From positions 1 to 64,000 of the forward strand of contig CAJNOJ010000068.1 of assembly GCA_905250025.1 (NCBI GenBank): a stretch of 64,000 nt of DNA, written 5' to 3'. A program made the position numbers and the translations under genes. Position 1 is the first letter of the stretch, and every line of letters starts with the position of its first letter. This document shows, piece by piece, positions 58,098 to 64,000 of this stretch. This DNA comes from Adineta ricciae (taxonomy: Eukaryota > Rotifera > Eurotatoria > Adinetida > Adinetidae). The notes below the pieces were generated by a model that was not told the origin of the DNA, did not search any database, and saw only the letters and a list, made by a program, of their open reading frames with translations.

Positions 58098-58940
58098 ATG
58101 AGTGCTCCCGATTTGCCGCCTGAAGTTTGGTCAAAAATTATTCTACTTGCGAAACCGACTTACAAACAGCTGATACAATTATCGACTGTTTCACAGAAGT
58201 TTCGTCGTTTGATCTTGAACAAATGGTTTCTCAAGAAGTGTTTCACTAAATATCCAATGCTAACTAAAGATCTTCTGTTACACATCGATTTTACAAACGT
58301 TATTGAAACTGATCAGAATCCCTTAATGAATTCCATTGGTGACATGTGTGGTTATCATGACTCTGTTGTGAAACATAACGACGGCATAACGATTGAAACA
58401 GATGAACTATTTAATCGTATTTTAACGTTTCAAACCGCCAAGCCAATCTGGTTAATAAATGCGTTCAACCTTCAGAAATGCTCACTCAAAACATTCTCTA
58501 TATCATTATGGTTTTTTTATTCTACAGACGGGATAATTGTTTTTCATTTTCAAAGAGCTTATAGTTGGTGGTGGTGCATTCAAATAACCATGGACATCGA
58601 AAAGCAAATGAAAATTAGAGTCATCTTGCCTAGTAAGATATGGGATATCGATGGTGGCCAACGAGATGAACACGTTTGGCATCACGTGGCCATTACTCAT
58701 GGCGAAACTTCACTTCACATTTATATAGACGGTCAGTTAATCAAAAAAATCGATCTACAATATGGGGAGCCCATACGTGTTCATAATCTTCGAATAGGAT
58801 GTCATTTTTCCAGTGGCAGTGGCTTAGCGGATATCGCTGTGTGGGGAAGAAGATTGTTGCCAGAAATCAAGTCGATTTATCAACAGAAAACATCGATTAA
58901 GCAGGCGGATCTAATTCAAGGATTGTTAAATGGGCTGTGA
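58098..58940 (+). CDS. F-box and LamG-like jelly-roll protein
   Basis: Single-exon, 280 residues, intact. Residues about 5-50 fit an F-box (LPPEVWSKIILLAKPTYKQL, then LSTVSQKFRRLILNKWF), which would link to SKP1 in an SCF ubiquitin ligase. Residues about 85-265 form a concanavalin/LamG-type domain, with the typical WHHVAITHGETSLHIYIDGQ strand pair and a late GLADIAVWGRRLLPEI. The usual role would be substrate selection for ubiquitination, with LamG as the recognition module; that is inferred. No frame break; starts at the first ATG of the open frame. Confidence 0.75.
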   Translation: MSAPDLPPEVWSKIILLAKPTYKQLIQLSTVSQKFRRLILNKWFLKKCFTKYPMLTKDLLLHIDFTNVIETDQNPLMNSIGDMCGYHDSVVKHNDGITIETDELFNRILTFQTAKPIWLINAFNLQKCSLKTFSISLWFFYSTDGIIVFHFQRAYSWWWCIQITMDIEKQMKIRVILPSKIWDIDGGQRDEHVWHHVAITHGETSLHIYIDGQLIKKIDLQYGEPIRVHNLRIGCHFSSGSGLADIAVWGRRLLPEIKSIYQQKTSIKQADLIQGLLNGL

Positions 58941-59246: not shown

Positions 59247-60079
59247 ATGATGAGCAGCACCAACGTCTATCCAATTTTGATCATTGTTTTGTTTACAAGG
59301 TCTATAACAGCTATTCATTGGAATGGAAATTGGGCATTCGCTTGTGATTTTTATAAAAATGATTTAACGGATGCGCGAATTCCTGGTGAGCAGTGCGGTG
59401 GAAGATGTGCTGCAACATCTGGTTGTACTCATTTTACATCGACAACTTATAATGGTGGAACTTGTTGGATGAAACATGGACATGCTACAAAAGAAAATGC
59501 GTTCTCAACTGGTGATCGTAGTGTGGTTTGTGGTGTTGTGGAACAAATATCAACAGATAGAACAATGTATGGTGTTCATACAACACGGCATGGTGCAACT
59601 GAACATGGAGCGTGTGCACTACCGACATCAAATTATGCTGTTGTCAATCCAGTTGCACTTGGAAATATTGAATCATTGAAAGATCTCAAATTTCGACCGC
59701 AATTATGTGGTCATGTGCTGAATGTAGACTGTGGCCATGGATCATTAGATATTATCGTCACGAATTCAAATTTAGGAGGTGGCCTTGATTTGTATGGCTC
59801 TACTTGGGATAAACTTACAAACCATAAACCGCCTGGAATAACTTCATGCAAAGTGAGATTAACTGATCGAAATGCATTCAACTTTCACGGTCCGCGTTGT
59901 TAAAGCAACAATCAACGGTCGAGCTGGAGTGCATCATGGAGACAATCCTTATTATGCATTTACTCCTGGTCCAATATTACGAGAATAAGGAAGTTATATT
60001 TACTTTCGAAGATGGAGGTATTCATTCAGTTTTTTTGAGAGATTGTGTAAAACAACGCAGTCAACAAACCTGGCGTTAA
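59247..60079 (+). pseudogene. secreted apple/PAN plus double-psi-barrel (expansin-like) protein, frameshifted
   Basis: The main frame (59247-59903) has a signal peptide (ILIIVLFTRSITA), a Cys-rich apple/PAN-like unit (CDFYKNDL ... EQCGGRCAATSGCTHFT ... GGTCWMKHG ... VVCG), then a barrel like the double-psi domain of expansins (GACALPTSNYAVVNPVALG ... LCGHVLNVDCGHGSLDIIV ... GGGLDL). It ends at a premature TAA. The C-terminus continues in other frames: VVKATINGRAGVHHGDNPYYAF (59892-59985), then FTFEDGGIHSVFLRDC (59988-60079). At least two frameshifts are therefore present. The family would loosen or bind plant or fungal cell-wall polysaccharide. Seen: the frames and motifs; inferred: one original gene. 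Confidence 0.65.
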
Positions 60080-61580: not shown

Positions 61581-62706
61581 TCATGTATAGTTGTATCCCT
61601 GGAAAGATACATATTCGATCTCGAATCGTTGAGGAAATTGATCTTCATCAATGTCATCCCCAGCTCTACAATGAAAAACGCAGAGTGAAAGCAATAATTG
61701 TTTCAGACGATAATACGCGTTGGAATTTTATCCTTAGTCATTGTACTTACACATCTCCACCAACACCTAGATATATTTCCAGATGGAATTCCTGGTCAAA
61801 TGGCCTGAAAACAGAATCAGAGGAAAAAACGATTTTCAACAAACTAGTAATACTGATCGATATCTGACAACTTACCAAAACTTCCAATCTCTATTATGTT
61901 TCTCAAATGCTAAGATTGATGTATCGTTCTCATCTGTATCGTTCAATCGAACGAACATTTCTATTCGATCGGGTGTCCATTCCACTAAACACAAATACAA
62001 TTCAGAATACTACTCTATGAGCTGAGAAAACTGAAGACAATGCTCTCTTACGTGAATAGGTTTTGAAATGATCCATTCCGTCGGGAATTTTGACTTCATC
62101 AATAAGAATGCTATTGCACAGTGGATTATTCTTTTTGGTGCAAAGTGACGATCTAACGATCCCCGGAGTGCGTCCCAAGTGTGACATTACGTTTATTTCG
62201 CCGTTCTCTGGCCACATCGCATTGCCATAAGTACGTTTGACGGGAAGCTAAAACGAAACAGATCAGGAGATCGCATTTGACTACTTATTTTGTGTGTCGA
62301 ATACAAACCAAAAGAAATGAAGACCATGTTCCCTTGGCAGGAGGTAATCTGGCGCGGATCTGAAGTTATGCAGAAGAACAGGAAAATCTTTGTTGAAAAG
62401 CTATAACGGTTCATACCTCAAGCCGGCCATACCGGAATGTTTTTCTACTCCTTAATCGAGCGGATGTAAATCGATAGCCTTTGTATTGTTGTTTTCGCGC
62501 TTCGATGACCAAACGACCATTCTCACATCTGGCGTTGTCATCAACACTTCCTGTATGGTACTGCTTTTGATGAGTACCCCATCCATTTTCTCCAGTGCCT
62601 TCAAGAAACTCCCATTTGGTTAGATCGATTTTATCACTTTGAAAGTTATCGTAGAATATAAGTGCACCATTGCTCATTTGAGTGCTTTGCACTGCTTCTG
62701 ATTCTC
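61581..62706 (-). other. GH16-like domain with lost catalytic residues
   Basis: Six exons, 785 nt, to the stop. GH16 enzymes carry E-x-D-x-x-E in the active-site strand; here the equivalent strand (near 62195-62175) reads GEINVMSHLG, so the first Glu stays, Asp is Asn and the second Glu is Ser. Flanking fold markers are normal. It resembles glucan-binding proteins of the GNBP/beta-GRP kind, which keep the fold but not hydrolysis. A binding rather than cutting role is inferred. Confidence 0.75.
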
Positions 62707-64000
62707 CTACAAAATCGAAGAGAAAAATCGAAACCACGAAGATCAACATGTTAACAGTTACCTACCCTCTTCCATTTCCCGCATAACGTCCGAGAATATT
62801 TTTTCAAACGGTTGAAAAAGTTGCGGATTTCGAAGTTCACCCACGCTGAAGGCTAATTGTAAGTATTTCAGCTGATCGTTTGAAGCAGTTTTCTTTGGGC
62901 GTTTCGTTGTAGTTTGATGTTCATTACCTGTGGAAAGAAAAAGAGAACAGAGCAAGTATGAACAAACTTTATTACGAAAGATAAAAGTACTCACTTAACT
63001 CGAATGGAACCAGACTTTTAAGATCCTTCTGTGTAGCTTTTATAATGATCAACTTGTCGAACCTTTAAAAAGTAACACGCCATAGAGCTCGAGTAATATA
63101 GAAGTCTACTGATCATGTTCAATCATACTTCATGATTCCATTACGATCGACTGTATTCGCGTTTATTGGGTAAAGTATACTTCGGTCGAAGTGACCAATT
63201 CCTTTTTGATATTCCGCTTCATGTATTTCCAAGGGACAAGGGTGGATATAACAATTGCCATTTACTTCAACCGTTGTTAACGTAACACAGATGAAGTAGG
63301 GTCTATTGGCATTGAAATATTTTTCTGATATCTAGACACGAATGAACAGAGTATATCTAAATGCCAATAGGAAGCATGAGCAAGCGTATTTACTCTGATA
63401 GCTGGACAATCGTATATTTCTCCATTTAATTCGTTGTGTACTCCATGAATGAAACGCACAGTTCTGCCTTTGGACTCAGATTTGGTACATGACTGTTGCG
63501 TCGATGACGGTTGAGCAAAAATTTCAATGCTTGGCATTGTCACAAAGTCTTGAGAGAAAGACAAAAGTTGAGTGAGATGAGACAGATCGATTTTAATATA
63601 GAAAAAAAGAGGAAAAAAATGAAACTAGACATACCGAAACCATTGAACGGATATGAACGCTTTTGAGATGATTCCATCTGATGTATGTCGTCGCTCAATT
63701 GTTCTGGATCCAGTTCTGGGAGATTATCAAAGATAGCTGCTAACAAGACAAGGTTGATTCAGCTAAGTTTAGTACAATTTATAGATGGAAAGCAATCTTA
63801 CTCAGTTCATTTAAGTTGCCTCGACTTACTTCCATCGATGCATCTGAAGACGCAGTTTCGAGGCGTTCTTCCCCGTAACCTATGAAACAGAGAAAATTAC
63901 TTTCTTTGACTAAAAATCATTTCAACAGCTTAGTTATATCGTACCAAACTCAAAATTCATCAGTGTTCGGATTAATTCGTTAGTAATATTATACGATGAA
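61581..64000 (-). CDS. Rel-homology-like region joined in frame to catalytically dead GH16-like domain; partial at right edge
   Basis: Exons (minus, 5' to 3'): from beyond 64000 to 63945, 63879-63802, 63739-63635, 63548-63394, 63331-63129, 63062-62995, 62927-62766, 62706-62417, 62359-62309, 62247-62052, 61984-61876, 61804-61751, 61665-61581. All joints agree in phase and all introns are 57-86 nt. After an acidic, helical lead (DNLPELDPEQLSDDIHQ), the middle exons resemble a Rel/NF-kB DNA-binding domain (PSIEIFAQPSS, YDCPAIR, FICVTLTTVEVNG, YIHPCPLEI, SILYPINANT). From 62706 the sequence is a GH16 beta-sandwich: LIFYDNFQSDKIDLTKWEF, YGRLEVRARLP-type edge, WPENGEINVMSHLG, LEWTPDRIEMFV, WPFDQEFHLEIYLGVGGD, FEIEYVSFQ, stop at 61581. 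Alternatively the Rel-like gene ends at a TAA (about 62759) and GH16 starts at ATG 62749 with a signal-peptide-like intron translation. The Rel assignment is moderate, GH16 is firm. Confidence 0.6.

Follow-up and report, generated by a model that had tools for sequence, protein, structure and literature searches.

A multicopy gene family of Adineta ricciae that very probably joins an NF-kB-type RHD-N to a GH16 domain with a degenerate active site in one reading frame

The window (the whole 64,000-base stretch of DNA analysed here) comprises the first 64,000 bases of the 437,712-base contig C68, in a genome of 130 Mb. Near its end, on the minus strand, lies a gene for which a splice model of 523 codons was built, the predicted protein consisting, in a single frame, of an N-terminal tail, an N-terminal Rel homology domain (RHD-N) and a glycoside hydrolase-like GH16 domain, in that order. 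The features of the model are as follows:

61581..63960, minus strand: RHD-GH16 fusion gene, 13 coding exons with the stop codon included; phase-consistent splice model, 523 aa
63635..63960, minus strand: N-terminal tail (exons 63960-63945, 63879-63802 and 63739-63635); frame and splice sites hold in C68 and C325
62766..63548, minus strand: RHD-N (exons 63548-63394, 63331-63129, 63062-62995 and 62927-62766), assigned by hhalign and unfused relatives
62707..62765, minus strand: junction intron, phase 1 and 59 nt long; its length is 58-62 nt in five other copies, and C894 and C502c lack it
61581..62706, minus strand: GH16 (laminarinase/beta-GRP-like) domain; PF00722 9.4e-12, PDB 3iln 3.4e-53
62706-62417, 62359-62309, 62247-62052, 61984-61876, 61804-61751 and 61665-61581, minus strand: GH16 exons
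62052..62247, minus strand: exon with the degenerate GH16 active site GEINVMSH, located by alignment to 3iln

All 12 introns are of the GT-AG type and 57-86 nt long, and their phases are consistent over the 523 codons, in agreement with the length range and the 12 matching joints given in an earlier note on this DNA. The start codon (63960) and the exons 63960-63945 and 63879-63802 add to the 5' end of the gene and are backed by the copy on C325, which has the same start, splice sites and frame. Another 5' frame was rejected, as it contains a stop in C325. The N-terminal tail was modelled in C68 and C325 only, and the stop codon was read in C68 only. By eye, no signal-peptide-like stretch was seen at the N-termini of C68, C325, C894, C502c, C502a and C114.

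Three further reading frames, all on the plus strand, were noted in the neighbourhood. A single-exon frame at 58101-58937 combines an F-box (PF00646, 2.0e-4) with a concanavalin A-like lectin/glucanase domain (Laminin_G_3, PF13385, 9.8e-8), so that, within a few kilobases of the fusion gene, an intracellular module is once more paired with a jelly roll that binds glycans. The 218-aa frame at 59247-59903 has a hydrophobic start and a weak PAN match (1.7e-4, 22 bits, below the cut-off of 27), and at about 66850-69760 of C68 there is a long, apparently intronless frame that by eye looks repeat-containing.

In a DNA search of the same genome, C325 was found to hold a copy that is 93% identical across the 2420 bases searched, and C894, C502, C114 and C246 to hold more distant ones. 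These contigs were listed again in protein searches with the N part, and together with others in the search with GH16. In spliced models both halves were present at nine loci (C68, C325, C894, C502a, C502b, C502c, C114, C246a and C246b), three of which sit on C502. Seven of the nine were open through the modelled region, from RHD-N to the last GH16 residues, while the contig of C114 ends within GH16 and the N part of C502b is disrupted. A tenth place, C894:305-3, holds the N part only and is cut by the contig start; this place and C502b were excluded from the eight-copy profile (A1), the joint profile (A8), the saved models, the dN/dS pairs and the comparisons of the junction and of the Arg35 position. 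C68 and C325 were collinear at 91-94% on both flanks of the gene in the stretches compared, and therefore look like homologous chromosome segments and not like independent duplicates.

The GH16 half was recognised directly, as the earlier note had called it. The window protein matched PF00722 in Pfam (9.4e-12, 45.2 bits, cut-off 22), and the best of 34 PDB sequences under 0.001 was 3iln, a laminarinase of Rhodothermus marinus, at 3.4e-53 over 240 residues. The GH16 catalytic motif is E-[ILV]-D-x(1,2)-E; the window protein has GEINVMSH against GEIDIAEH in 3iln, so that the motif is absent from it, with D replaced by N and the second E by S. Of the eight other copies, seven have N and C502a has S in place of D, and all eight have S in place of the second E; C246a and C246b (GQINFVSH) also have Q for the first E. 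The GH16 domain of the fusion thus has a degenerate active site, and as an enzyme domain is probably inactive, judging from these residues. Among the matches listed there were eight other contigs with GH16 matches, none with an N-part match listed. At a GH16-like locus on one of these eight (C393:68017-69003), which shares three intron positions with the GH16 of the fusion, the site is also degenerate (GNIDLMLH), and a frame further upstream contains a hydrophobic stretch, as yet unjoined to the GH16 exons by any model. A separate GH16 homologue search in genome_contigs matched its pattern at 13 stretches, none of which was confirmed.

The identity of the N part was less direct. The earlier note had proposed a profile search of the conceptual protein for both domains; single-sequence scans confirmed GH16, but with no single N-part sequence did Pfam or PDB give an RHD match (in Pfam the eight members did no better than DUF4176, 0.0017, in one member only), and the Rel assignment was upheld by profile-profile comparison and by unfused relatives instead. 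In hhalign, the A1 profile aligned to eight RHD sequences over 163 collinear columns with a probability of 89% and an E-value of 2.3e-6, a value for that one comparison with hand-entered sequences. The score was 44.3, against a maximum of 22.5 in 300 column shuffles, 9.7 for the reversed profile and 17.8 for the GH16 halves. The best of 30 rotations reached 42.7, a weak control because rotated profiles retain most of the domain. With NFAT alone as partner, the probability was 1%.

Two unfused places, C211:85784 onward and C201:6640 onward, which are near-identical to each other, were found by similarity to C246b (E 0.003 and 0.002) and, once spliced, aligned over nearly the whole N part of the fusions. 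Spliced C211 scored just under the cut-off of 27 on PF00554 (6.4e-6, 26.7 bits), a score that is independent because similarity to a fusion copy was the ground on which C211 and C201 were chosen; that of C23:233556-232744 (1.1e-5, 26.0 bits, also under the cut-off) is a selected one, because C23 was picked for its RHD match. Own-genome searches with p65 and Pfam RHD_dimer, and with Pfam RHD at 0.001, gave nothing, a silence that is uninformative unless backed by a positive control; at E up to 10, Pfam RHD gave two sub-threshold places, C23 and C21, and C21 was rejected, having no convincing RHD. The fusion profile matched C211, C201 and C23 at 99.8% (1.9e-30), and single blastp comparisons gave 1e-25 for C246b and C211, 2e-14 for the window copy and C211, and 7e-14 for C23 and C502c. 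With the joint profile A8, c-Rel (1gji) was the only match under 1 among 177,635 PDB sequences (4.1e-4 for the whole sequence, 0.012 for the best stretch). The RHD intron phases of the fusions (0, 2, 1) recur in C23 in one of two placements, the phase assigned to the first RHD intron of C23 varying with the query (0 or 2); that assigned in C211 was 1.

Behind the RHD-N of C211, on the same strand and within 2 kb, there is an ankyrin-repeat frame (Ank_3, 7.3e-7), as yet not part of one joined gene model. The middle stretch resembles the RHD dimerisation domain by score (25.8, where 200 shuffles reached at most 19.3), with an hhalign probability of only 31%; C211 gave no Pfam RHD_dimer match, and C211 alone found no RHD in PDB. 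The region C211:77283-89414, of which 85601-87600 was read, apparently holds a p100/Relish-type NF-kB gene with RHD-N, the dimerisation-like stretch and ankyrin repeats, and there may be more copies close by, to judge from weak matches at about 77.3-78.0 kb and 89.3 kb (E 0.04 to 1.1).

Compared with this arrangement, the Rel region of the fusions is reduced. The RHD-N ends with its last conserved strands (QLAFSV...IFSDVM), GH16 starts about 20-30 residues on, and the fusion models contain neither a dimerisation (IPT) domain nor ankyrin repeats between or after the two. Since a dimerisation-like stretch and ankyrin repeats follow RHD-N in the unfused relative, GH16 occupies their place in the fusion. 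The Rel recognition loop has the sequence RFRYxCE (residue numbers follow p65), which was found in none of the eight fusions: the position of Arg35 is C, Y or F in all eight and R in C211, C201 and C23, and C68 and C325 also lack the equivalents of Arg33 and Tyr36. What stands of the earlier Rel call is therefore the N-terminal DNA-binding subdomain, but with the dimerisation domain absent and the recognition loop degraded, 'NF-kB-like' denotes ancestry and not a demonstrated transcription factor. The fusion could in principle still be a DNA-binding transcription factor in which GH16 replaces the dimerisation domain and responds to a glycan ligand: the RHD-N region is under some constraint, and an NLS-like run, KRPKK, is present in C68 and C325. 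That run is however absent from the other six A1 sequences and, given the loss of the arginine in all eight fusions, of the Arg33 and Tyr36 equivalents in C68 and C325 and of the dimerisation domain, we regard a DNA-binding factor as unlikely.

The dN/dS values, reported as ratios without a significance test, were below 1 in both halves in all eight pairs computed. Between subfamilies (four pairs, some with saturated dS) they were 0.26-0.41 for RHD and 0.10-0.42 for GH16 (C68/C894: 0.26 and 0.10, respectively, dS saturated), and in the four close pairs 0.18-0.59 and 0.17-0.58, while the linker of about 25 codons gave 0.22-0.98 in the seven pairs where it was defined. Between C894 and C502a, dS was 0.97 for RHD but 0.16 for GH16, which suggests that the GH16 halves have undergone gene conversion while the RHD halves stay apart. 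This sign of conversion, the disrupted N part of C502b and a dN/dS near 0.6 in both halves of the close pair C894/C502c could all be expected of a decaying, non-functional family kept by duplication and gene conversion. Such decay is very unlikely in view of the seven copies that are open over the modelled region and of the lower between-subfamily ratios.

Whether the two halves form one gene was addressed at the junction. The 59-nt intron (62765-62707, GTAGGT...TTTTGTAG) and the in-frame join of its exons (GAG G|GA GAA), both described in the earlier note, are present in the sequence, as are the TAA near 62759 and the ATG at 62749 on which that note had based an alternative, operon-like pair of genes. 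C502a (60 nt), C114 (62), C246a (58) and C246b (61) share the position and phase of the junction intron, after placement by hand on better GT-AG sites than those of the splice program, which had placed these four introns differently (70-74 nt). In C325, where the junction measures 58 and not 59 nt, the frame of the ATG runs into a stop and no ATG is present in the GH16 frame. The junction intron is missing from C894 and C502c, where a single exon (3403-2958 and 48825-48380, respectively) covers the last part of RHD-N and continues into GH16.

Reading from ATG 62749 in the window copy gives an uninterrupted frame that begins with a hydrophobic stretch and leads into GH16, so that retention of the intron in this copy alone would yield a plausible secreted GH16. 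A single fused gene whose window copy additionally makes a secreted GH16, through intron retention or an internal transcript start, would account for this feature, which is confined to C68 and is not kept even in the 93% identical copy on C325; we consider such an isoform highly improbable. Two separate genes, perhaps an operon with trans-splicing, in which a Rel-like protein ends near 62759 and a secreted GH16 begins at ATG 62749, initially seemed a fair reading because of this same open frame and its hydrophobic start. Among the six intron-bearing copies, however, only that of the window has an ATG in the GH16 frame: in C325 the ATG frame stops, and in C502a, C114, C246a and C246b the GH16 frame, followed back to its last stop, contains no ATG. 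With C894 and C502c crossing the junction in one continuous exon, the two-gene reading fits one of the eight junctions compared and is scarcely credible; C502b, left out of this count, likewise has no ATG in the frame continuing into GH16. A single RHD-GH16 polypeptide is thus the reading that fits the compared copies and is supported by them, as the earlier note had proposed, its operon-like pair working in the window copy only. That the N part is another beta-sandwich domain with a chance likeness to Rel would suit the lack of single-sequence RHD matches and the rotations that still reach 42.7, but is no more believable beside a shuffle maximum of 22.5 against 44.3, the 99.8% match of the profile to the relatives with PF00554 scores, and c-Rel as best PDB profile match.

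Taken together, the comparison of copies makes it very likely that the window gene belongs to a multicopy family in which an NF-kB-type RHD-N is joined in one frame to a laminarinase-like GH16 domain with a degenerate active site, GH16 standing in place of the dimerisation and ankyrin parts. As to function, the fusion protein probably stays inside the cell, because no signal peptide was seen by eye. Its GH16 jelly roll probably no longer cuts and may still bind beta-glucan or another glycan, and because the protein is probably intracellular, the probably inactive jelly roll would be a lectin candidate. Binding of kB DNA in the classical manner is improbable for the Rel part, which has lost the DNA-contact arginine and the dimerisation domain and more likely serves the Rel pathway as a decoy or as a module for protein interaction. 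Glycan recognition in the cell (for example, of a fungal wall) would in this way be coupled to Rel signalling by the fusion, a mechanism that as a whole we put forward tentatively, as possible and short of probable. A sensor and effector in one protein, that is, an intracellular glucan or glycan receptor with its own Rel domain as signalling output and at least seven open copies, is a more doubtful extension; if true, recognition and the NF-kB step, elsewhere split by an extracellular and membrane cascade, would be merged in a single polypeptide.

Both halves belong to animal antifungal immunity, where they act at opposite ends of the pathway. In a lineage where they were joined, with loss of the dimerisation and ankyrin parts and with several copies maintained under constraint, the rewiring of Rel signalling could be tested directly, which would be of particular interest in a host group without Toll-like receptors (TLRs). 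One study reports that TLRs were not found in Adineta vaga, nor in the surveyed rotifer transcriptomes except for one species (PMC8609888). Horizontally acquired glucanase-like genes were upregulated in two Adineta species under attack by a fungal pathogen, according to a second, in which the expression of metazoan genes was not closely explored (PMC11258130). This literature makes an intracellular glycan-Rel setting plausible for a bdelloid. Of two sequence features expected of bdelloids, a spliced-leader sequence had no match, and the TGTGGG repeat carried no information, its reversed control being the same repeat. In the open-licence PMC literature no paper pointed to an RHD-GH16 fusion by its title or the start of its abstract.

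NF-kB p100/p105 and Relish consist of RHD-N, a dimerisation domain and ankyrin repeats. The fusion shares RHD-N with them, linked through unfused C211, in which ankyrin repeats and a dimerisation-like stretch are found on one strand with it, and differs from them in carrying GH16 instead of the dimerisation domain and ankyrin repeats and in its degraded recognition loop. The beta-1,3-glucan recognition proteins (beta-GRPs, GNBPs) of invertebrates are secreted and have an inactive GH16, some with an N-terminal CBM39; the fusion resembles them in the degenerate active site of its GH16, but shows no signal peptide by eye at the N-termini read and is joined to a Rel domain rather than acting upstream of one. 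The laminarinase 3iln, the best PDB sequence match of the GH16 half, differs from it at the active site (GEIDIAEH against GEINVMSH). The C393 locus is like the fusion in three intron positions of GH16 and in a degenerate site, and unlike it has no N-part match listed.
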